DNA of 64,000 bases from positions 1-64,000 of the forward strand of contig NZ_JAATVW010000004.1 of assembly GCF_011947225.1 (NCBI RefSeq), in the 5' to 3' direction. Made by a program: the position numbers and the translations under genes. This document shows, one piece after another, positions 25,642 to 35,888 of the stretch. The notes below the pieces were generated by a model. The model did not search any database, was not told the origin of the DNA, and worked only from the letters and a program-made list of their open reading frames with translations. Numbering within the stretch: position 1 is the stretch's first letter; each line of letters starts with the position of its first letter. The DNA is from Planosporangium flavigriseum (GTDB lineage: Bacteria > Actinomycetota > Actinomycetes > Mycobacteriales > Micromonosporaceae).

Positions 25642-26699
25642 GACGCCTCCGCCCATAGGACCGGTGGAGGCTCGACGCCACGGCGTACCAACAGGTCGGC
25701 GAGGGCGCGGGCGACCGGTCCGGCGCCGCGATCGCGGCGCCAGGCGGGCACGGCCTGTACGAGTCGTGACTCCGTCGACGGCAGCAGCAGGCAGACCTCG
25801 TCCAGCACCCGGCCGGTCGCGACTGCGCGTACCTGTAACACCACCTGAAGGGCTGCGGCGATCTGGGCGTGCAGCGCCTCCCTGGGCACCCCGCTGAGCA
25901 GGCCGAGCGCCTCCAGCCGGGCCGGCACGTCTGCGGAACTGTTGGCGTGAAGAGTGCCCGCCCCGCCCTCGTGGCCGGTGTTCAGCGCACCCAGCAGATC
26001 AATGACCTCGGCGCCGCGGCACTCGCCGACGACCAGCCGGTCCGGCCGCATCCGAAGCGCCTGCCGCACCAGGTCGCGCAGGGTCACCTCACCCGCACCC
26101 TCGACGTTGGACTGCCGCGCTTCCAGGGCGACCGCGTGCGGATGCGCCGGTCGTAATTCGGCGGCGTCCTCCACGATGACGATGCGCTCATGCGGCGGTA
26201 CGAGTGACAGGAGAGTCGCCAGGAGGGTGGTCTTGCCAGCTCCGGTCCCACCCACGACGAGGTAGGCCAGCCGGGCGGCCACGATCGCGGCGAGCAGCGC
26301 CGCCACGTCGGCGGTGAGGCTGCCGGCGGCGACGAGTTCGGGCAGGGTGAACGCGCGCCGGCGCAGGGTACGCAGCGACAGGTACGGCCCGTCCCGAGCG
26401 ATCGGTGGCAGAACGGCGTGCATGCGGGTGCCGTCTGGCAGGCGGGCGTCGACGAATGGGCGGCCCTCGTCGAGGCGGCGCCCGGCTGCTGCCGCCAGCC
26501 GCTGCGCGAGCCGGTGCACATCGGCCGGCGCTCCGAGCCAGACGCCTGCCCGCTGCAGCCCACGGCCCCGGTCGATCCACACCTCACTGCCGTTGACCAG
26601 TACGTCGGTCACGTCAGCCTGGGCGAGCAGGGCCATCAGCCCGCCCGCGCCGCCAGGACCGTAAGCCGCTCCGGCCGGCTCGTCGGTATCAACCGTCAT
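25638..26699 (-). CDS. TadA/CpaF-family secretion ATPase
   Basis: The 353-residue hexameric ATPase powers pilus or protein secretion. Walker A VVGGTGAGKTTLLATLLSLV, Walker B/Asp-box IVIVEDAAELR and the His-box ALNTGHEGGAGTLHANS are present. LVVGECRGAEV is the Walker B region. ATG 26699 overlaps the stop of ssd (ATGA). It is the motor of the Tad-like operon. Confidence 0.93.
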   Translation of the reverse strand: MTVDTDEPAGAAYGPGGAGGLMALLAQADVTDVLVNGSEVWIDRGRGLQRAGVWLGAPADVHRLAQRLAAAAGRRLDEGRPFVDARLPDGTRMHAVLPPIARDGPYLSLRTLRRRAFTLPELVAAGSLTADVAALLAAIVAARLAYLVVGGTGAGKTTLLATLLSLVPPHERIVIVEDAAELRPAHPHAVALEARQSNVEGAGEVTLRDLVRQALRMRPDRLVVGECRGAEVIDLLGALNTGHEGGAGTLHANSSADVPARLEALGLLSGVPREALHAQIAAALQVVLQVRAVATGRVLDEVCLLLPSTESRLVQAVPAWRRDRGAGPVARALADLLVRRGVEPPPVLWAEAS

Positions 26700-27790
26700 G
26701 CCGCCGGCTCCCGCGTACGCAGGTCGAGGTCGTCCAGGATCCGTTGGCACAGCAGGGCCAGCGGTCCCCTGCCGGTTCCGGCCGGCGGCTCTCCGCGCTC
26801 CAGCGCCCGGGCCAGTTCGGGCTCGGGCCGGAGCGTGCCGGCGAGCGGAAGATCCAGCGCCCGGGCGATCTCCCGCGCCTTTAGGCGGCCCGGGGCCGGT
26901 CCCCGCACGACGATCCGGAGCGCGCTGGTGTGCGCGGTGGCGACAGCGGCAACCCTGGCGGCGGCTGCGCAGGCACGCAGTTCAGCAGGGACCAGGAGAA
27001 GGGTCTGGTCGGCAGAGCCCAGTGCGAGGATGGCGGCGTCGTCGAGGCGCCGCGGCAGGTCGACGACCACGAGGTCCCGGCTGGCCCGGCCGGCGGCGAG
27101 CGCGGCCTCCATCGCGTCATGGGGAACGGTCAGCAGATCGCCCCGGTCCCAGGACAGCACGGCGAGCTCACCGCGGCTGGGCAGGGCGTCCACGAGCGCC
27201 GGCGGCGAAACGCCCGTGGAGCCGTGTGAAAGCGCGGGCCATCGCAGCCCATCAAGCGATTCCCAGCCGAGGACCAGGTCCGCCCCGCCACCCATCGGGT
27301 CGGCGTCCACCAGCAGCGCCCGAAGCCCGGCGCGGGCTGCCGTCACTGCCAGACCAGCCGCCAGGACGCTGGCTCCTGAGCCTCCCCGCCCGCCGAGCAC
27401 CGCGACGACCGTGGCCGGCCTGGGCGCTCCGGCTGCGTCGACCAGGCGGTCCACCAGCCACGGCTCGGCTGCCGGCAGGACGGCGATGTGTTCGGCGCCG
27501 AGCGCCTCGGCCACCTCCCAGGGCGGCTCCTCGACGGGCCCCATGACCACGAGCACGGTCCCGGGCCGTCGGGGAAGCCGGGCTCGTACGCACCCCGGCG
27601 CCGCCCCGAGGCCGACAAGGACGAGGGGTGCGGCGCCGAAGCGCGCACGCGCGGCGACCGCGTCGGGCGCCACCTCCAGCTCGACCCGGGCGTCGGCGGC
27701 GAGTCGCAGCGCCTCGTCGAGCAGGTACGGGTCGTCGGTGACCAGGAGCGGACGGAGCGGAGCAGAGACGGTGGCGCTTCGAGAAGCCAC
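26696..27790 (-). CDS. ssd: Septum-site-determining-like protein Ssd / CpaE-like MinD ATPase
   Basis: The 364-residue protein has an N-terminal receiver-like region (RPLLVTDDPYLLDEALRLA). A MinD/ParA-type domain follows, with the deviant P-loop VLGGRGGSGASVLAAGLAV and ALLVDADPMGGGADL; the usual P-loop lysine is not seen. It corresponds to Rv3660c, which heads the same operon. The GTG at 27790 is preceded by GTGGAGG with a six-base spacer. It probably localises the Tad machine and may affect septation. Confidence 0.88.
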   Translation of the reverse strand: MASRSATVSAPLRPLLVTDDPYLLDEALRLAADARVELEVAPDAVAARARFGAAPLVLVGLGAAPGCVRARLPRRPGTVLVVMGPVEEPPWEVAEALGAEHIAVLPAAEPWLVDRLVDAAGAPRPATVVAVLGGRGGSGASVLAAGLAVTAARAGLRALLVDADPMGGGADLVLGWESLDGLRWPALSHGSTGVSPPALVDALPSRGELAVLSWDRGDLLTVPHDAMEAALAAGRASRDLVVVDLPRRLDDAAILALGSADQTLLLVPAELRACAAAARVAAVATAHTSALRIVVRGPAPGRLKAREIARALDLPLAGTLRPEPELARALERGEPPAGTGRGPLALLCQRILDDLDLRTREPAA

Positions 27791-27876
27791 GGGCGGCCTC
27801 CACGGATCGAGGGGCGGGACGGACCGGCCCACCCTGCGCGCACCGGTCGATCCCGCGCCGCCCGTACTCGATGATC

Positions 27877-27904
27877 TGTGGACAGCGAGGGTGCTTGTGG
27901 ATAG
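27877..27904 (-). promoter_or_regulatory. Two DnaA-box-like sequences upstream of ssd
   Basis: TGTGGACAG (27877-27885) and TGTGGATAG (27896-27904) are near matches, on the minus strand, to the DnaA box TTATCCACA and its mycobacterial TTGTCCACA form. They lie about 90-115 bases before ssd. With two imperfect copies this could be chance. Confidence 0.3.
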
Positions 27905-28016
27905 GTCAAGGCGACGGCAGTTGATCTGATATGGCGACAAGGCCGTCTTGTCTGGGCCCCTCCGCCCCACACCGTCTCGGGTTATGGACGGAACTTCTGT
28001 CAGCTCACTTAGATGA

Positions 28017-29552
28017 TCATGACGGCTTCGCGATGACCATGAACTTGTTCTCCGCGCGCTGCGCGAACTTCAGGAATCCGCGCAGCCCGGGGAGGCCCTC
28101 CAACATCCCGAAGATCGGGATCAGCAGGATCACGGCCAGCGGCTCCCACCACTTGCGCCGACCGCCACCGGATACTCCGGCATTGACCCGCAGGCCCTCC
28201 CAGTACATCCAGATCGTGTAGGCCATGTTCAGCGCCCAGACTGGAATGACTAAGAGCATCTCCGGAGATGTGTTGGAAGCGAGGAGAATGCTCAGGAACA
28301 GAACTACTCCGACATTCGTGATCGGGCCGACAACCCACGACATCACCGAATATCCGAGTAGCAGCCGGTTTCGCAGTTGCAGCGACCGGTTGAATACCAG
28401 GCCCGCCAGGCCCCAGGACCAGCGCTCGCGCTGCCGGAAGAAATCGTGGAGGGTGGCAGGCGACGCGCCGTAGCACCGCCCGCCGAACCAGGCGCTCCGG
28501 CCCTCGTAGCGAGCACTGAAGATCATTGCGAACTGGGCGTCCTCGACAATGCTCCGAGGGCCGAAATCCCAGCCTATTGTCGCCTCGATCGAGGCCCGCA
28601 CCAGCAGTAACTCACCGTGCACGCCGGCGCGCGGCGTGCCACTGCCGGTCCAGGTCGAGAAGCGCCCGACGTCCTCGGCGGGCCGGACCGAGTCCGCGAG
28701 CCAGGTGAGCGTGTTCACTGCGTACTCGCGCGGATACGTCAGGATGCCCTGAGCCAGGTGCTTGGCATCGTGGCCAGCCTGAACCTGCTCCTCGATAAAC
28801 CGGGCCATGGCCAGGGCGGTATCCGGGCCCACACCAGTGTCGTCATCCATGTGCAGCACCCACACGTCGTCGCAGTCCTCATGCTCGCGGATCCGCAGCT
28901 CGTGCGAGTAGTGGGTGGCACGCGCCTTAAATTTCGTTCCGTTGGCTGTGCGATACCGCCTCGGTACGGTGACAAGCCTTATCAGCTCACTTCCGGCGGC
29001 CAGCCTGGCGATCCGCTCTGTTGCCTCACAGCCCTCGTCGATGACGATGTCGATCCTGAGCCGGGGAAAGCACCTGGGGAGATAGGCGATGTAGGACAGG
29101 ACCGAGCGCTCGAGCGCGGGGTAGATGTCGTGCCGGCCGATGGTAGGAACGACAACGATCAGGAAACGCTCGCTTCTCGTCAGCCCGCGGCCAGACCACC
29201 GAGCCTCTGACTCGCGCAGTGCCTTGCGAGTCCGCCGGATGCCGAGGATACCGGTGAGCGTGGTGAAGATGGGCCACGTCCACAGCACCGTCAGCGGCCA
29301 GCCAAGCGCGCCGGCAGATGGGGCGTTGGCCCAGAGGTCACCCACCACAATGAGCAGGTAGGAGAGGACCAACGGCCAGTACGCTGGCCTCCAGCGGGCG
29401 AGCCTGCGGTGCAGTTCTCGCGCCTGCTGCGGGCCGAACAAGGTCAACGCGCCCCGGAACTGCCCCGTGCTCAGCGCTTCCCGGCCCGCAAGCCAGGCGC
29501 CCCAATCAAGCCAGGCGTCCCAATCCGGAGGCGCAGCCTTCTGTCCTCCCAC
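28017..29552 (-). CDS. Egghead-like family 2 glycosyltransferase (putative beta-mannosyl/glucan synthase)
   Basis: The 511-residue membrane enzyme has two N-terminal membrane segments (PLVLSYLLIVVGDLWA; TVLWTWPIFTTLTGILGI) and a GT2 domain. The domain starts at VVVPTIG (133), with the DDD motif at 236-238 (HMDDDTG), the acceptor-site ED at 337-338 (SIVEDAQF) and QRERW at 374-378. Three C-terminal membrane segments follow. The layout (GILTYPREYAVNTLTWLADS...GVHGE) resembles animal Egghead/BRE-3 beta-mannosyltransferases. GTG 29552 has AGGGGAG eight bases upstream and is preferred over TTG 29597. It is divergent from a GH26 mannanase. Confidence 0.8.
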   Translation of the reverse strand: MGGQKAAPPDWDAWLDWGAWLAGREALSTGQFRGALTLFGPQQARELHRRLARWRPAYWPLVLSYLLIVVGDLWANAPSAGALGWPLTVLWTWPIFTTLTGILGIRRTRKALRESEARWSGRGLTRSERFLIVVVPTIGRHDIYPALERSVLSYIAYLPRCFPRLRIDIVIDEGCEATERIARLAAGSELIRLVTVPRRYRTANGTKFKARATHYSHELRIREHEDCDDVWVLHMDDDTGVGPDTALAMARFIEEQVQAGHDAKHLAQGILTYPREYAVNTLTWLADSVRPAEDVGRFSTWTGSGTPRAGVHGELLLVRASIEATIGWDFGPRSIVEDAQFAMIFSARYEGRSAWFGGRCYGASPATLHDFFRQRERWSWGLAGLVFNRSLQLRNRLLLGYSVMSWVVGPITNVGVVLFLSILLASNTSPEMLLVIPVWALNMAYTIWMYWEGLRVNAGVSGGGRRKWWEPLAVILLIPIFGMLEGLPGLRGFLKFAQRAENKFMVIAKPS

Positions 29553-29776
29553 TTTCGCTTCTCCCCTGCGCGCTCGTAGTCGCCGGGCAATGAGCAACTA
29601 CCCGTAGACAGCTCGGCCAACCCGGGGACGGAGCCGCCGAGCACCTCACCCGCTATGACGCCGAGGAGAGCGTGCCTGCTGGAGGCGCACAACGCCGCTA
29701 TGGCCGAAAAACTCTCCGGTAGCGCAGGACACCCTCCAGGGCCAGCGGTGGGGTCGAGGTACGCCGAACCCCGGAC

Positions 29777-29796
29777 TGATCACTGATCAGTGATCA
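29777..29796. promoter_or_regulatory. Perfect 20-bp palindrome (candidate operator)
   Basis: TGATCACTGATCAGTGATCA is a perfect dyad. It is flanked by a second, outer inverted repeat, CCGAAC near 29764 and GTTCGG near 29812. It is placed between the divergent GT2 and GH26 starts. The binding protein is unknown. Confidence 0.65.
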
Positions 29797-29872
29797 CTAA
29801 GAGTTCGGGGGTAAAACCCTCGAAACCCTTCGTATCGTCAGGAATTATCACTCTTCGTAGTCGGTTCGTAAC

Positions 29873-29886
29873 TGGGAGCGCTACCA
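29873..29886. promoter_or_regulatory. CebR/CelR-like operator in front of GH26
   Basis: TGGGAGCGCTACCA matches 13 of 14 bases of the LacI-family operator TGGGAGCGCTCCCA, used by actinobacterial cello-oligosaccharide repressors. It ends 33 bases before the GH26 start and overlaps a plausible TACCAT -10 box. Repression by a CebR-like regulator, relieved by oligosaccharide, is inferred. Confidence 0.6.
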
Positions 29887-29919
29887 TAGGCCGCCCCTTA
29901 CCGACCTCCGGGAGAGCAC

Positions 29920-31161
29920 GTGATCCTCAATCGACGCCGATGGTCGGCCCGTATGCGCGCAGCGATTACGGCCGCCACCGCGCTCACCGCAGCTGGACTC
30001 CTCGCCATCGCACCCCGTGCGATCGGCGCGTACCCGACCGCGGACACGATCTGCGACCGGTTCGGATCCGCCCACCAGGGCAGCGACGTTGTCATGAACG
30101 ACCGCTGGAATCCGACCGCGACCGGACAGCAGTGCGTCGGCGCCACCAGCACCCCGCCCACGCCGGGTGGCCAGGTCAGCAAGTCCGACGTGCTCAACTG
30201 GATGTCCAAGCTTCAGCACCGCAGCGACAACCGGGTCGTCTCCGGCTTCTTCGGCGGCTACAGCGGCAGCACGTTCAACCTGGACCAGACCAACCAGCTC
30301 AAGAACCAGAGCGGTCCGTACCCTGGCCTGCTGGCCTGCGACTACGCCAACTGGGTCAACAGCGCCAACACCCAGGTCGACAGCTCGTGCAACGACACGC
30401 TGAAGGACTGGTGGCACAACGGTGGCCTGGTCAGCGTCGGCATCCACATGCCGAGCCCGACCGGCGGGAACTTCGGCACGAAGCTGGGCAACTTCGGCGA
30501 CCTCACCAACAGCGGCACCGCCGTCGGCCGCGCCTACCAGGACTCGCTCACCAAGATCGGCGACGGCCTGAGCGATCTCAAGAACGCCGGCGTGGTGGTG
30601 CTGTGGCGACCGTTCCACGAGATGAACGGCGACTGGTTCTGGTGGGGCAACCAGGACGCCGACACGTACAAGAACGTGTGGAACTACACGTACAACTACC
30701 TGGTCAACACCCGCGGGCTCGACAACCTGATCTGGGTGTACGCGCCGGACTGCAGCCGCAACGGCAACCTCACCGACTACTACCCGGGTGGTGACAAGGT
30801 CGACGTCGTCGGACTGGACTGCTACACCGACAACCCGTCCGGCGGCGACGGCAACGTCGTCAAGAATCTCGACGCGCAGTACAACCAAATGCTCGGCCTG
30901 GGCAAGCCGTTCGCCTTCACCGAGGCCGGCCCTCGCGACCAGACGGGCGGGTCGTTCGACTGGAAGAAGTGGATCGACGCCATCCAACAGCGGTACCCCA
31001 AGACCACGTACTTCCTGGCGTGGAACGACAAATGGAGCCCGCCGCAGAATCAGAACTCGACCGGTCTGATGAACCATCCGTGGGTCATCAACCGAGGCGA
31101 GATCGACCTCAGGGGTGGCGCCACGCCTCCGACTCCGCCACCGGGCAGCGGTGGCCACTGA
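29920..31161 (+). CDS. Secreted GH26 beta-mannanase with truncated C terminus
   Basis: The 413-residue product has an N-terminal signal peptide (AAITAATALTAAGLLAIAPRA). Residues about 38-75 (ADTICDRFG...VVMNDRW...QQCVGAT) resemble the first strands of GH12 endoglucanases. The GH26 domain has acid/base Glu234 (WRPFHEMNGDWFWWG) and nucleophile Glu335 (FAFTEAGP). It ends in a Pro/Thr linker (TPPTPPPGSGGH) with no binding module. After the stop, the frame reads ASYRVVNPWSAGW, the beginning of a CBM2, so the module was lost through a stop in place of its first Cys. GTG 29920 follows GGGAG. Confidence 0.9.
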   Translation: MILNRRRWSARMRAAITAATALTAAGLLAIAPRAIGAYPTADTICDRFGSAHQGSDVVMNDRWNPTATGQQCVGATSTPPTPGGQVSKSDVLNWMSKLQHRSDNRVVSGFFGGYSGSTFNLDQTNQLKNQSGPYPGLLACDYANWVNSANTQVDSSCNDTLKDWWHNGGLVSVGIHMPSPTGGNFGTKLGNFGDLTNSGTAVGRAYQDSLTKIGDGLSDLKNAGVVVLWRPFHEMNGDWFWWGNQDADTYKNVWNYTYNYLVNTRGLDNLIWVYAPDCSRNGNLTDYYPGGDKVDVVGLDCYTDNPSGGDGNVVKNLDAQYNQMLGLGKPFAFTEAGPRDQTGGSFDWKKWIDAIQQRYPKTTYFLAWNDKWSPPQNQNSTGLMNHPWVINRGEIDLRGGATPPTPPPGSGGH

Positions 31162-31200
31162 GCCAGCTATCGCGTGGTCAACCCGTGGTCTGCCGGCTGG
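31162..31200 (+). pseudogene. Remnant of a CBM2 cellulose-binding module
   Basis: In frame with the GH26 gene and right after its TGA, the sequence encodes ASYRVVNPWSAGW. This matches the start of CBM2 domains, which normally begin with a Cys where the TGA now stands (TGC to TGA). Similarity ends at about 31200, where integrase-derived sequence starts. Confidence 0.6.
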
Positions 31201-31231
31201 CTGCCGCCGGATCAGCGCCGGGGCCGGCTTG

Positions 31232-31312
31232 TCGCTGACTGCTGGCTCCCCCGAAGATCGGGATGACGGGGAGGAGCCAGGGACAGCCGGTGCGGTACCT
31301 GCACGAACATGA
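31232..31312 (+). pseudogene. Integrase 3' end, left copy
   Basis: The frame SLTAGSPEDRDDGEEPGTAG then AVPART-stop is clearly homologous to the end of the second integrase remnant (SLTSGPLKDPGDGEDPGTAG, ALPART-stop) at about 34677-34757. Only the last two dozen codons remain. It abuts the CBM2 remnant, so a deletion or recombination fused the two. Confidence 0.7.
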
Positions 31313-31360
31313 CGCGATAGTGCCGTCGGGAAAAGGGACGACCCCCGCCGGGGGAGGCGG
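31232..31360 (+). repeat. Left copy of ~130-bp direct repeat (integrase end plus att-like core)
   Basis: This copy pairs with 34677-34806. Identical blocks include GGACAGCCGGTGCG, CCTGCACGAACATGAC and the core GGGACGACCCCCGCCGGGGG (31335-31354 versus 34780-34799). In the right copy the core is the 3' terminator arm of the 6C RNA gene, which suggests that this is an attachment-site repeat. Confidence 0.75.
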
Positions 31361-31568
31361 TAGAACGTCGTCAGCCGTTGGCGGCCGTGATCGTTCGGCC
31401 CTCATTCGCGCACCTCACGAGGGGTCCGACGTCATCGGTTGCCAACGGCTGTCAGCGTTGCCGCTGACTTTTTTGCTGACGACCAACAACTCCTGGCCCT
31501 GACTGCGGCCACTATCCGCGTGACCTACGGCGAGGCTTGGCGTGGTCGGGGCAGGCGTGCACGCCGAG

Positions 31569-31907
31569 CTAACCAGCGCGCTGGCATTCCGAATCGTCGA
31601 CCTTGCGTCGTAGGCTCGCCTCGGTCCACGTGAGTCTCCGACCGCTATCGGAGAAGCGCGCGAACAGCGATACGCATTGGCCCACGTGCGGCAGGTCCAT
31701 GAGACCCGATGGGACGGACCCGCAGGTTTCGACTTGAGAGCTCTCGTTTGGGCCGACGCACACCTCGGTGGCGGAAACCTTCGTGACGTGTGCGGTGTAA
31801 CGCGGACCTTCGCCGTCACCTAGGGTGCACCCGCAAATCAGCAGCCCGTAGCCGAGGAAGCCGGCGAACACCGGCCACGGCGGACGCCGCTTCGTCTGCT
31901 GGGTCAT
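31569..31907 (-). CDS. Small putative lipoprotein of unknown function
   Basis: This 112-residue product starts MTQQTKRRPPWPVFAGFLGY, with a hydrophobic stretch ending in a possible lipobox LLICGC. The mature part (YTAHVTKVSATEVCVGP, two more Cys) recognises no known family. No clear Shine-Dalgarno precedes ATG 31907; a TTG at 31928 is the alternative. It is a cargo gene of the accessory island. Confidence 0.5.
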   Translation of the reverse strand: MTQQTKRRPPWPVFAGFLGYGLLICGCTLGDGEGPRYTAHVTKVSATEVCVGPNESSQVETCGSVPSGLMDLPHVGQCVSLFARFSDSGRRLTWTEASLRRKVDDSECQRAG

Positions 31908-32139
31908 CGGCGCATCGTACGAGCGCAACCTGCCGTGCGTTGTCCGGTCAATGGTCAGTTGTCACGGTGCGGCCGGCCGGCGCGTGCGCGGCGGGCCGGA
32001 GGTCCAGAGCGCGCCGCCTTGATTCATCACAGGCGAATTCGGCAATACATGGGGCTAGTGCGCTGTCCTCCGTCGACTGATGCGCGACAGTCGTCTGCCA
32101 ACTGATCTGCGACATCCGAACGCGGATCGCGGCTACTTG

Positions 32140-32433
32140 TTGACTGGTGTTACGACCGCAGCCCGGCCAGGCTTGGTCGAGGTGACCGGCGGGATCGCTC
32201 GCATCGCGGCTGCCCACCGCAAGTTGGTGTGGCTCTCTTCTGGCATGCGTACCGCCGGTCACCGTGGCGCGGAGAGGCTCCAGAGGGGTTTGCCCAGCTC
32301 GAAGTAGCGCTGCCCTCCTCGCCGGCATCGGCTCGGTGGGATCGAGGAGGACAGCGTGGGACGAGTCATCATCGGCATGGATCCGCACATTGCGATCGTT
32401 GACGCTAGGGAGTTCGCAGAAGACCGGCGGTAA
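32140..32433 (+). mobile_element. IS110-family remnant (left end and transposase N terminus)
   Basis: From GTG 32356, preceded by GAGGAGG, the frame reads GRVIIGMDPHIAIVDAREFA and stops at 32433 after 25 codons. GRVIIGMDPH is the typical start of IS110-type DEDD transposases (first catalytic Asp). The rest of the enzyme is gone. The roughly 200 bases before it could be the element's left non-coding end, where IS110 elements encode a bridge RNA; that part is inferred. Confidence 0.6.
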
Positions 32434-32487
32434 GTCAATCGATCGCCGCTGGGTCCACCGTTCCGCCCGCAATCAGCCAGTCGACTG

Positions 32488-32625
32488 TTACATGATCCAG
32501 ATGGTCAATAGCTCGGCCGTCACGACGAGCACCACCTCCCAGCCGGCGCGGCGATACACCTCGACGTTGGCCGGGTTGCTGGTTCCAGGATCGCCGGCAG
32601 GCCGTCCGCGGCGGCGCGGCGTAAT
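32488..32625 (-). pseudogene. GNAT acetyltransferase C-terminal fragment
   Basis: Reading left on the minus strand, one frame gives AAADGLPAILE. After a one-base shift, SNPANVEVYRRAGWEVV and ...LLTIWIM-stop (TAA 32488-32490) follow. The SNPANVEVYRRAGWEV pattern is the end of a GNAT fold. The N-terminal half and the acetyl-CoA motif are missing. Confidence 0.6.
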
Positions 32626-32728
32626 CCGGTCTCCTTACGGCTCGGGCGTTCCTCGGCATGGCCTGCGGATAGAGAGGGCCACGAGGGGTCCGCACCCGCG
32701 GAGCCACCGGGGAACTGGGGACACGACC

Positions 32729-33280
32729 ATGACGCACCTGAGATCCGTGCTGACCCTGCTAGGGACGGTGTTGCTGACCATGGTGGCCGGGTGCGGCGCG
32801 GCGCCCGACAAGGCCACGCCCCCTCCGGCGGCTGGCCCGCCGCCAGCAGTGACGGCCCCACTGATGGCGGGGATGAGCGTGCCGGCAGCGTCCGGCCACC
32901 ACGGTCAGCAAGTGCCGGCGGCGACCGCCTCGGTTGTCATCAAGAACTTCGCATTCTCGCCGGCAGCGGTCACCGTGGCGGTTGGTACCACGGTGACGTG
33001 GTCCAACCGCGACCAGGCTGCGCACACCGTCACCGCCTCGGGTGGCGCGTTCAAGTCGCCCACCTTGGACCCCGGCGACACCTTCCGGTTCACGTTCACG
33101 AAGGCCGGCCGCTACGCCTACCTGTGCACCATCCACCCGTTCATGACGGGGACGGTTGTAGTGACGCCAGGAATGGTGACGCACGGGACCCCGAAGAGCA
33201 TGAGCCGCCAGTCCGGTAAAACGCCAGCTCGCCACTCGTGCGTCGAGTTCTGGCACGGTACAGGCCTGCGTGGCGGATAA
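32729..33280 (+). CDS. Cupredoxin-domain lipoprotein (plastocyanin/azurin-like)
   Basis: The 183-residue copper protein has a signal peptide with lipobox LLTMVAGCG and a Pro/Ala-rich linker. Its type 1 copper site has His in QAAHTVTASGG and Cys-His-Met in YLCTIHPFM. The conserved fold ends at about GTVVVTP; the following roughly 35 residues look like unselected read-through, so the true 3' end may have been altered. The frame extends far upstream, but ATG 32729 matches the signal peptide. It probably carries electrons or copper outside the cell. Confidence 0.85.
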   Translation: MTHLRSVLTLLGTVLLTMVAGCGAAPDKATPPPAAGPPPAVTAPLMAGMSVPAASGHHGQQVPAATASVVIKNFAFSPAAVTVAVGTTVTWSNRDQAAHTVTASGGAFKSPTLDPGDTFRFTFTKAGRYAYLCTIHPFMTGTVVVTPGMVTHGTPKSMSRQSGKTPARHSCVEFWHGTGLRGG

Positions 33281-33411
33281 CGTACGGGACTACGGGGTAG
33301 CAGGCCAGTTGGTCACTTCGCGGACAGGGGCATGATTTCGCCCGGCCCACGGCCGGTCGGCGAGTCCGCGGAAGGCATGTTGATCACCAGCCTTCGCTGT
33401 GGGGGATGCGG

Positions 33412-34380
33412 ATGACCACGCAGATGGCTCGGCCTCAGGTTGGGATCACTCCGAACATGTTCGCGATCCCGTACGGGCTGGCTGGCCTGGCTACTTGCTG
33501 GGGATACGCCGCCCTCCTGAAGCTGGCGCCCGCGATTGTGGCCGGCGTCCTGTTCATCGTCACCGCAGCGGTATGGCTGGTGCTCGTGGTCGGGTACCTC
33601 TCGCAGGTGCCGCGCCGGCGCGGCGGCTGGCGCGCCGAACTGGCCGATCCGGCGTTGGGACCGTTCGTGTCGCTGATCCCGATCGTCGGCATGCTCCTGG
33701 CGATCGGCCTGATGCCGCACGCCCTCGCCGCCGGTAGATGGCTGTTTGGGGTCTTCGCCGTCGCCACCACCGTCCTGGCCGGGTGGATGACCGGCCAGTG
33801 GCTCGTCGAAGACCTCGACCTGGACCGGCTGCACTCCGGCTACGTCCTGCCCGCGGTCGCCGGAGGCCTCATCGCCTCCATCGGCGCCGCCCTCGCCGGC
33901 TGGACCGGAATCGCCCACGCGTTCATGGGCCTGGGCGTCGTGTCGTGGCTGCTCATCGGCTCCGTCATCATGGCCCGGCTGATGTTCCGCCCTCGGCTGC
34001 CCGCGCCGCTGACGCCCACCTTGGCGATCGAGGTCGCGCCGCCCGCCCTGGCTGGCCTCGCCTACCTGGCCATCACCCACGGCAGGGTCGACCTGGTCGC
34101 CCTGGCTCTCGGCGGCTTCACCGCGCTCGCCGTGATCGTCCAGATCCGGCTTGTCCCCGTGTACCGCAGGCTGTCCTTCGGCCCTGCGTTCTGGTCGTTC
34201 GCGTTCCCATACGCCGCGGTGGCCACCTTCGCGCTGCACTGGGTCAACTATGGCAGGCCGGTCGGGTACAAGGTCTGGGCCTGGATCGTCCTCCTCGCGA
34301 TCACCGCGTTCATCGCCGCCCTGGTCGCGGAGACCACAGCGGCCCTCGCCCGGCGCGAATTCCTGCCACAACTCCAGTAA
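33412..34380 (+). CDS. TDT-family transporter (TehA/SLAC1-like), multi-spanning
   Basis: The 322-residue protein has about ten hydrophobic segments (from FAIPYGLAGLATCWGYAALL to VWAWIVLLAITAFIAALVAETTAAL). The FAIPYGLAGLA...W pattern is typical of the tellurite-resistance/dicarboxylate transporter superfamily. The substrate is unknown. ATG 33412 is chosen because GGGGG lies six bases before it; ATG 33406 is too close. It is island cargo, directly upstream of the integrase remnant. Confidence 0.82.
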   Translation: MTTQMARPQVGITPNMFAIPYGLAGLATCWGYAALLKLAPAIVAGVLFIVTAAVWLVLVVGYLSQVPRRRGGWRAELADPALGPFVSLIPIVGMLLAIGLMPHALAAGRWLFGVFAVATTVLAGWMTGQWLVEDLDLDRLHSGYVLPAVAGGLIASIGAALAGWTGIAHAFMGLGVVSWLLIGSVIMARLMFRPRLPAPLTPTLAIEVAPPALAGLAYLAITHGRVDLVALALGGFTALAVIVQIRLVPVYRRLSFGPAFWSFAFPYAAVATFALHWVNYGRPVGYKVWAWIVLLAITAFIAALVAETTAALARREFLPQLQ

Positions 34381-34435
34381 CCGCCAACCGTCACAGCTGT
34401 CGCGTCCGACCGCGTCGACAGGCGGTGACGTATCA

Positions 34436-34757
34436 GTGCGGACTCGGGCCAAGGCCGCAGCGCACGTGCCGTACCGGCACCGATGCGGCCCCGCCCGCTT
34501 CCATGACCTACATCACACCTACGCGACCTGGCTCGTCAGCGACGGCCTACCGGTCAACGTTCGTCCAGCGCGTGATGGGGCACCAGCTAGCCTCGACGAC
34601 GCTCAACCGGTACACGCACGCCCCGGCCGACTACGACGACCGGGTTCGGGACGCCCTGGACGCGTCCGCTGACTTTTCGCTGACTTCCGGGCCGCTGAAA
34701 GATCCGGGCGACGGGGAAGATCCGGGGACAGCCGGTGCGCTTCCTGCACGAACATGA
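34436..34757 (+). pseudogene. Tyrosine recombinase (integrase) C-terminal remnant, right copy
   Basis: A first frame reads RFHDLHHTYATWLVSDGLPVN. Near 34556 it shifts to a second frame with VQRVMGHQLASTTLNRYTH (including the nucleophilic Tyr) and on to ...TAGALPART-stop at 34757. The conserved arginine of HDLRHT is replaced by His. The N-terminal two thirds are absent. The remnant ends beside the 6C RNA terminator, the usual position of an integrase next to its att site. Confidence 0.85.
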
Positions 34758-34806
34758 CCTGGGAGGACTCGCCACAGAAGGGACGACCCCCGCCGGGGGG
34801 AGGCGG
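34677..34806 (+). repeat. Right copy of ~130-bp direct repeat
   Basis: This copy pairs with 31232-31360. It includes the integrase tail, a spacer and the 20-base core at 34780-34799, which overlaps the terminator stem of the 6C RNA gene. About 3.4 kb of island lies between the two cores. Confidence 0.75.
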
Positions 34807-34813
34807 GGGTCGT
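34783..34813 (-). terminator. Terminator of the 6C RNA
   Basis: ACGACCCCCGCC (34783-34794) and GGCGGGGGTCGT (34802-34813) form a perfect 12-pair stem with a seven-base loop. It is immediately 3' of the two C-loop hairpins on the minus strand. Confidence 0.8.
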
Positions 34814-34890
34814 CGTGGGTCCGACTCCGGGGGGTTGAGCCGAACCCTCTCGGCAATCACGGGGGGTTGTGAAGGCCGAGGGTCTGGGGC
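34783..34890 (-). ncRNA. 6C small RNA
   Basis: On the minus strand two hairpins each expose six cytosines. Hairpin 1 is ACCCTCGGC...GCCGAGAGGGT (34844-34883), with the C-run at 34861-34866. Hairpin 2 is TTCGGCTC...GAGTCGGA (34820-34844), with the C-run at 34829-34834. A strong terminator follows. This is the 6C motif of actinobacteria (mycobacterial B11). In M. tuberculosis it also lies between Rv3660c (ssd) and Rv3661, on the minus strand, just upstream of the HAD gene as here. The 5' end is estimated, not seen. Confidence 0.85.
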
Positions 34891-35087: not shown

Positions 35088-35888
35088 GTGGGTCGCAGCG
35101 CCGCATTTTTCGACCTCGATAAGACGGTCATCGCGAAGTCCAGCGCGCTCGCGTTCGGACGGCCGTTCTACCGTGATGGCCTCATCGGGCGTCGAGACAT
35201 GATCAAAGCCGCGTACGCCCAGCTCATCTTCCGTATCGGCGGCGCGGACGACCAGCAGATGGCCCGCATCCGCGACGCCGTCGCACAGCTGTGCAAAGGC
35301 TGGCGGGCCGAGCAGGTCCGGCAGATCGTCAATGAGACGCTGCACGAGCTGATCGACCCCTACGTGTACGCGGAAGCCACCGCCCTCATCAGCGAGCACC
35401 GGGCAGCGGGACGTGACGTCGTACTCGTCTCGTCGTCCGGTGACGAGATGGTGCGCCCGATCGGTGAGCTGCTCGGCATCACCGACGTGATCGCGACCCG
35501 TATGGTGGTCGACGACGGCCGCTACACCGGCGAGGTCGACTTCTATGCCGCCGGCCCCAACAAGGCGATCGCCGTACGCGAACTGGCGGCCGAACGCGGC
35601 TACGACCTGGCGGACTCGTACGCGTACTCGGACTCGATCAGCGACACGCCGCTACTGGAGACCGTCGGCCACCCGACAGCAGTGAATCCGGACCGGGCGC
35701 TGCGCCGGCTGGCCACCGAGCGGGGCTGGCCCGTCCTGGCGTTCCGCCACCCCATCCCGTTGATGCGCCGCCTGCGGCAGCGTCCGGCGGTTCCGGCGGC
35801 CGCAGCGGCGGTCGGGCTGGGCCTGGGTGTCGCTCTCGGTCTCATCCTGTACGGCCGCCATCGGCGAGCCCGCACCGCGGCGGCGTAA
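35088..35888 (+). CDS. HAD-IB family hydrolase (SerB1/Rv3661-like phosphatase)
   Basis: This 266-residue phosphatase-like protein has HAD motif I FFDLDKTVIAKSSA (DxD), motif II VLVSSSGDEMV, and the motif III/IV region GPNKAIAVRELAAERGYDLADSYAYSDSISDTPLLETVG. A C-terminal membrane anchor follows (AAAVGLGLGVALGLILYG). GTG 35088 is seven bases after a TAGACT -10 box with no Shine-Dalgarno, so the mRNA is probably leaderless. Its neighbour relations (6C RNA, ssd, Rv3662c-like) match M. tuberculosis Rv3661. Confidence 0.93.
   Translation: MGRSAAFFDLDKTVIAKSSALAFGRPFYRDGLIGRRDMIKAAYAQLIFRIGGADDQQMARIRDAVAQLCKGWRAEQVRQIVNETLHELIDPYVYAEATALISEHRAAGRDVVLVSSSGDEMVRPIGELLGITDVIATRMVVDDGRYTGEVDFYAAGPNKAIAVRELAAERGYDLADSYAYSDSISDTPLLETVGHPTAVNPDRALRRLATERGWPVLAFRHPIPLMRRLRQRPAVPAAAAAVGLGLGVALGLILYGRHRRARTAAA

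Follow-up and report, generated by a model that had tools for sequence, protein, structure and literature searches.

Genomic islands at genes for transfer RNA (tRNA) and transfer-messenger RNA (tmRNA) restore the 3′ end of the RNA gene that they enter, as described in part of PMC12884075. According to the relevant part of Ghinet 2011 (PMC3218068), actinomycete integrative and conjugative elements (AICEs) have the layout att-tra-rep-int-att (att, attachment site), are known in tandem and, when they use a tyrosine integrase, mostly sit at tRNA 3′ ends, with the members of the pSLS subfamily all excepted. A small RNA (sRNA) gene can also be the site of entry: excerpts from the review PMC7380047, which cites Balbontin 2008, place the att site of PhiW104, a prophage of Salmonella, at the ryeA/ryeB locus, inside the terminal 23 bp of one of its sRNA genes. 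Here we analyse a stretch of 64,000 nucleotides from Planosporangium flavigriseum (contig NZ_JAATVW010000004.1, positions 1 to 64,000; the window), in which an insert lies at the 3′ end of another sRNA gene, 6C. We are highly confident that the 3′ (terminator) half of the 6C gene serves a lineage of AICE-type elements in the Micromonosporaceae as bacterial attachment site (attB), that these elements enter by a tyrosine integrase, rebuild the terminator hairpin and can enter in tandem, and that the window holds a decayed example.

A repeated half of the 6C terminator

The 6C RNA gene, the putative integration target that would be rebuilt on entry, was found at 34778–34849 on the minus strand by its match to Rfam RF01066 (69.3 bits, E = 5.4e-7, gathering threshold 47), in agreement with a preliminary description of the stretch made from its sequence. 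The terminator hairpin (34782–34814, minus strand; from the sequence and a hairpin script) is a 13-bp perfect inverted repeat, and its 5′ arm (34802–34814), 7-nt loop TCCCCCC (34795–34801) and 3′ arm (34782–34794) can be read off the sequence. A 20-mer from the terminator arm occurs with 0 mismatches at 34780–34799 and, as had been noticed before, at 31335–31354. The whole exact repeat measures 22 bp and is embedded in 134 nt at 77% identity with one gap. The copy adjoining 6C (34778–34799, minus strand) begins inside the terminator loop and takes in part of that loop, the 3′ arm and CCCTT; the second copy (31333–31354, minus strand) lies between two remnant elements, called A and B here. With up to 3 mismatches, the 20-mer has these two matches only in the window (0.08 expected from 100 shuffles), and with up to 2 mismatches the same two are the only ones in the whole 5.72-Mb host genome. 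The check for copies at unrelated loci, proposed in the preliminary description, thus returned none.

The core at 6C is preceded by what remains of the C-terminal part of a tyrosine integrase gene, its reading frame broken (34442–34682, plus strand; element A). It was recognised by tblastn with P0001, the integrase of the related genome G182 (55 and 67% identity, E = 1.6e-18), and by an integrase hidden Markov model (HMM). At the other core lies the tail of a second, related element, B (31228–31332, plus strand), which is homologous to the tail at 34673–34777, with 77% identity across a 134-nt stretch that takes in the core. A recombinase gene had earlier been said to end before each copy; this holds for the copy at 34780, in the form of the broken remnant, but not for that at 31335, where only about 105 nt of element tail are present.

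The extent of the insert was defined with genomes of the same genus. Homology to these ends at 34778 (G022) or 34776 (G073) and restarts at 27933 (G022, G053) or 27939 (G073), and the distance from 6C to the ssd side is 24 nt in G022, 156 nt in G073 and about 1.7 kb in G053, where no integrase or element tail was recognised in this interval (locus L065). When the window’s 6C was joined to its position 27933, the alignment to G022 was unbroken, with 79.7% identity over 2,865 nt, which indicates an insert of about 6.8 kb at the 6C 3′ end. Homology limits and joined-flank alignment together place the whole insert, relative to the empty G022 site, at 27934–34777. An insert between ssd and 6C had been proposed before and is indeed present, but the span then given was too small. 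The genes for a GH26 glycosidase and a GT2-type glycosyltransferase also lie within the insert.

An overlooked tRNA target was considered and rejected: ARAGORN detects no tRNA or tmRNA gene in the window, and the RNA at the integrase-proximal end of the insert is 6C.

Occupied sites, empty sites and tandem arrays

A far core was found in 6 of the 20 family loci at which an integrase or its remnant abuts 6C (G000, the genome of the window, and G089, G182, G186, G188 and G196). The exact cores measure 28 bp and lie 14.9 kb apart in G182; the corresponding values are 26 bp and 12.5 kb in G186, 25 bp and 14.1 kb in G196, and 25 bp and 11.0 kb in G089, where the block begins in the 5′ arm. In G188, cores of 27 and 29 bp at 0, +18.7 and +36.5 kb delimit a tandem array with two different integrases, 92 and 67% identical to P0001. 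The identity blocks of G182, G186, G196 and G188 (25–29 bp) all run from the first base of the 7-nt loop (TCCCCCC) through at least CCCTTT. Further repeats were seen in G095, where a block of 19 bp lies at a distance of 1.1 kb and there is no integrase, and in G065, where 50 nt recur nearly unchanged (96%) about 5 kb from the site.

Comparison of occupied with empty sites, as the preliminary description had suggested, revealed two or more cores at several occupied sites, and three pairs are continuous once the insert is removed: the window with G022, G188 with G143 (88.5% over 2,783 nt) and G095 with G192 (84.7% over 1,990 nt). Other pairs are not, and are considered below. The three cores and two integrases of G188 also bear out the tandem accretion that had been suspected from the window, as does Micromonospora sp. 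KC606 (L212), in which a core has an integrase directly on one side and the end of another element on the other.

Recurrence of integrases beside 6C

6C was present in 163 of 200 genomes of the family, taken to be the Micromonosporaceae, and 139 of these 163 had loci that were readable and could be placed by script (G096 and G046 are among those left out). At 20 of the 139 loci, an integrase or its remnant lies directly against the 3′ end of 6C, on the opposite strand; G086 had been chosen for its integrase match, and without it the count, then unbiased, becomes 19 of 138. None of the 77 loci with ssd less than 700 nt from 6C has an abutting integrase. At the 20 integrase loci, ssd was found in 13, at a distance of at least 2.7 kb, and was not found in the other seven within the available flank (2.4 kb in G174, 1.4 kb in G178). 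DNA from integrase tails lies directly 3′ of 6C at 27 of 139 loci, compared to 0 of 135 sequences taken from the 600 nt 5′ of 6C; the 13 tail donors belong to the 139, and each was compared with the others. Integrase and tail scar combined mark 28 of the 139 loci. The integrase HMM gave no match in 444 kb of 5′ flank, set against 2.0 Mb of 3′ flank. The expectation that relatives would show integrases beside 6C was borne out, at its 3′ end.

Beyond the family, this single HMM, which leaves other integrase families outside its scope, had no match in the 44 genomes searched out of about 139 in a class sample with 6C (28 as L280–L307 and 16 as L308–L323); one of the same 44 showed a weak match to the motif, in a frame of 83 aa. 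Within the family, further weak or partial integrase matches were noted 2.4–5.9 kb from 6C in G097 and G119. G023, G125 and G305 each have two 6C matches, and extra copies are also reported from mycobacteria in part of PMC9569102.

Type of element

Modules were scanned in two genomes, G182 and G188. The G182 element encodes a Phage_integrase protein (P0001; PF00589, 78.9 bits), an excisionase-family helix-turn-helix (HTH) protein (TIGR01764, 58.7 bits; cut-off 28.8), a RepSA replication initiator (PF20199, 469 bits) and a NUDIX protein. RepSA (472 and 322 bits), FtsK/SpoIIIE-type Tra (PF01580, 42 and 56 bits; cut-off 24) and NUDIX proteins are encoded by both G188 elements, the second of which also has an excisionase-family (44.0 bits) and a GntR protein. 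The match to the RepSA equivalog of NCBIfam stays below its cut-off. Exact direct repeats of 27–29 bp flank the elements in both genomes. Judged from these modules, the intact elements of G182 and G188 appear to be of AICE type, which would be expected to excise and to transfer by conjugation.

A Cap4 nuclease domain was recognised in a further protein of the second G188 element (L055:10080–11327; PF14130, 28.3 bits, cut-off 26.2), perhaps a defence cargo. An IS110-family transposase gene is present in the G182 element (L060:11838–12932); an IS110 remnant is listed for the window insert in the preliminary description.

In the window insert itself, the combination of int, rep and tra is absent: only the broken integrase is present, and no rep or tra was recognised among the open reading frames (ORFs) examined. 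The insert is a remnant of AICE-type elements and not itself an AICE, and is best read as the decayed tandem remnant of two insertions.

Genes in and around the window insert

Two cargo genes that had been named previously were both recognised by Pfam, one for a SLAC1/TDT-family transporter (33406–34380, plus strand; PF03595, 105.9 bits) and one for a cupredoxin-domain protein (32729–33280, plus strand; PF13473/PF00127). A small ORF of 119 aa from the ORF list (31569–31928, minus strand) looks lipoprotein-like by eye. Towards ssd follow the GH26 glycosidase gene (29920–31161, plus strand; PF02156, 222.7 bits), which the 6C–ssd intervals of G022 and G073 are too short to hold, and the GT2-type glycosyltransferase gene (28017–29597, minus strand; PF13632). 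The left host flank is formed by the ssd-like gene (26696–27970, minus strand), which has a MinD/ParA-type ATPase domain (PF01656) and owes its name to the preliminary description, and the right one by a HAD hydrolase gene (35088–35888, plus strand; PF12710).

Weighing of alternative explanations

Several observations speak against 6C-targeted integration as the full account of these loci. At 14 of the 20 loci with an integrase, an 18-nt exact search of the available flank did not find a far core. When the flanks of G182 were joined, each of them matched G003, with no alignment running through the join, and those of G186 and G196 matched G164 only to about 15–50 nt past 6C; the alignment of the window to G073 is likewise interrupted where the flanks meet, owing to about 150 nt that are peculiar to G073. 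G164, whose ssd lies at 570 nt, has a 43-nt match to an element tail and stands outside the count of 28; as it was counted as empty, “empty” sites may hold small scars. The ssd gene lies at least 700 nt from 6C at 45 of the 139 loci, 32 of which have no abutting integrase and 27 not even a tail scar, so that other processes also lengthen the ssd–6C interval. In the window, a third core was sought beside ssd and not found, the best site having 8 mismatches, and no evidence connects the GH26 and GT2 genes to element B.

The last two points give some weight to an origin of the window interval in several unrelated events, namely a small 6C-targeted remnant and a separate acquisition of the GH26 and GT2 genes beside ssd. 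No core is left at the ssd end, and both genes sit outside the segment between the two cores, which are 3.4 kb apart. The second tail at 31228–31332, however, points to an element B that reached towards ssd, as in the G188 array. We regard such a composite origin as possible, though on balance it is not what we expect.

That the ssd–6C intergenic region is a generally permissive hotspot, with the 6C gene itself not the target, appears very improbable. It would account for the 32 long intervals lacking an abutting integrase, in whose ORFs the commonest families are alpha/beta hydrolases and other non-mobile functions; in 62 of the 74 long-interval ORFs listed, Phage_integrase is not among the best 25 of 60 families, although a single weak member is possible. 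These intervals are perhaps older scars. A permissive region does not explain why the integrases detected share a single orientation against the 3′ end of 6C, why the 5′ flank holds no integrase match, or why the core is 6C sequence itself, starting from the terminator loop in four genomes.

Local duplication or chance similarity in GC-rich DNA, with incidental integrase fragments, would suit a window that has no whole integrase gene and only an element tail at its second copy, but we reject it as extremely unlikely, since it is contradicted by the shuffles, by a genome-wide search that found two copies only with up to 2 mismatches, by the occupied and empty site pairs (in G022, ssd starts beside 6C), by the two or more cores that recur at spacings of 11.0–18.7 kb in five other integrase-bearing genomes, and by the int, xis and rep genes of G182 and G188.

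Target of related integrases

For 79 named integrase loci, 6C was found at the integrase end in 25, one of them cut by a contig end, while 38 have a tRNA gene in the corresponding arrangement, no more than about 200 nt away (ARAGORN output was at hand for 58 of the 79). The remaining 16 carry no target label. L212, one of these, was later placed in a 6C array, and several others have tRNA-like 3′ halves that can be seen by eye but were not called by ARAGORN, and received no label. The best tree (70 of the 79 rows, 54 of them labelled) needs 1 change between 6C and tRNA and 13 changes among all targets, and the fork that links the long 6C rows L222 and L275 to the rest is weak (86/47), with a warning from the program that two long branches meet there. 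A second, quick tree of 58 rows, from which six labelled tRNA rows were left out, needs 2 changes and places tRNA-Ala integrases nearest. Use of 6C thus clusters on the integrase trees, which need one or two changes of target. The tRNA-using branch is represented in the window’s own genome, by a related integrase at tRNA-Val(GAC) (L093, G000:C1:317296–318006).

Hairpin architecture

Tyrosine integrases act on two inverted core sites around an overlap of 6–8 bp. A 13-bp stem with a 7-nt loop is present at 19 of the 20 occupied 6C sites, and a 7-nt loop at 66 of 118 others (Fisher p = 8e-4, not corrected for relatedness); one of the 139 loci gave no hairpin. At the tRNA-Ala(TGC) gene in the genome of L216, where each of the two copies is on a contig of its own, the identity block opens with the first base of the anticodon loop; at that of G106 it starts 3 nt before the loop. 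Both sites belong to integrases near the 6C clade. A 58-bp pair at tRNA-Ala(GGC) in G106 (C30:7867 and 16672; L326, L327), 8.8 kb apart and likewise starting from the anticodon loop, is probably another island.

The arms and following bases of the tRNA-Ala(TGC) gene in the genome of L216 match the 6C hairpin of the window at 15 of 16 positions. When the 22 anticodon classes seen in the loci on hand were compared with this hairpin, Asp(GTC) ranked first (mean 14.3 of 16, n = 3) and Ala(TGC) second (12.7, n = 7), with lower means against the Micromonospora form of the hairpin (12.3 and 10.7, respectively). As Asp(GTC) outscores Ala(TGC) on average, resemblance alone does not single out tRNA-Ala.

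Tentatively, and with somewhat less than even confidence, we propose that the 6C terminator mimics an anticodon stem-loop, and that integrases acting at the anticodon loop of tRNA-Ala(TGC) moved to an sRNA with the same site layout. They could have done so because the inverted stem arms of the terminator would act as core-binding sites on either side of the loop, which forms a 7-bp overlap. The hairpin and tRNA-Ala comparisons support this proposal, short of proof. If it is correct, target choice would follow the architecture of a stem-loop gene and not tRNA identity, and each integration could renew or change a regulatory C-rich loop of 6C.

A motif like CAGGTCAC was noticed by eye at L324, at L329 and in several 6C elements, about 10–35 nt past the core in tRNA-Ala elements and some 6C elements, and to the left of the far core in some; it is possibly a candidate arm site of the integrase.

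Proposed mechanism and consequences for the RNA

Our overall explanation draws on what can be read from the DNA, namely the repeats and their orientation, the intact modules in relatives, the empty and occupied sites, the tandem arrays and the clustering of 6C use on the trees. The attachment site of the element (attP) would carry a copy of the 6C terminator from the loop onward, comprising loop, 3′ arm and CCCTTT. A tyrosine integrase, which may still be active in some genomes, would recombine attP with attB in 6C, with strand exchange probably within the loop. This would leave the host with a complete 6C hairpin, composed of its own 5′ arm and the loop and 3′ arm of the element, while the second core would mark the element’s far end. 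Further elements, presumably arriving by conjugation, could then enter the rebuilt site and produce tandem arrays. In the window, the product would be two element ends with two cores, after breakage of int and loss of rep, tra and a third core. The idea of integration into the 6C terminator with its reconstruction, put forward in the preliminary description, gains support from the cores, the occupied and empty pairs and the recurring integrases.

In mycobacteria 6C is known as B11, and in M. abscessus its two C-rich loops pair with a G-rich 5′ untranslated region and in this way repress eccB4, as described in part of PMC10470900. The att core contains the second C-rich loop, so the incoming element would supply part of a regulatory site. 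The 6C scores stay high in occupied genomes (75.9 bits in G188 and 69.1 bits in G182, against the gathering threshold of 47), and 6C probably keeps its function after integration. Part of a conserved regulatory RNA, one C-rich loop included, would be controlled by incoming elements.

The preference of integrases for tRNA genes has long called for an explanation, and one clade here appears to have left tRNA for an unrelated but structurally similar RNA hairpin. With tRNA-using relatives at hand, the contributions of stem arms, loop length and conservation could be separated by in vitro recombination. The site is a recurrent insertion hotspot in the Micromonosporaceae, a family of antibiotic producers, and the integrases may serve as tools for chromosomal integration. 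Annotation that is restricted to tRNA sites would miss islands at 6C.

Comparison with known systems

In the part of the literature that was searched, we found no report that names 6C RNA as an integration site, and the part of PMC9569102 that was consulted makes no mention of integration at 6C. Attachment sites in sRNA genes are already known; as far as searched, the 6C target and an integrase lineage dedicated to it appear to be new. Phages and plasmids were considered as carriers of close relatives of the integrase and rejected, the best identities listed being 34% for a phage and 33% for a plasmid; the plasmid search with P0001 returned 6 records, all with at most 33% identity and none named pSLS.

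The prophage PhiW104 at ryeB has in common with the 6C elements an att site at the 3′ end of an sRNA gene. It is, however, an enterobacterial prophage at an unrelated RNA, and the RNA on the opposite strand is altered there. In keeping with an sRNA site of the PhiW104 type, the cores at 6C lie in the 3′ end of the gene, and 6C is still recognised in occupied genomes. Islands of the Islander/TIGER type also have the 3′ end of the target gene restored, and the blocks at tRNA-Ala begin with the anticodon loop and continue to the 3′ end, much as the 6C blocks run from the terminator loop; their target is a tRNA or tmRNA gene, in contrast to the 6C RNA used here. In gene content there is a likeness to AICEs of the pSAM2 type, with which the 6C elements share a tyrosine Int, an excisionase (Xis)-like HTH protein, RepSA, a Tra of FtsK/SpoIIIE type, NUDIX proteins, att repeats and tandem arrays. 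While the pSAM2-type elements mostly occupy tRNA 3′ ends, the 6C elements sit at the terminator of an sRNA.

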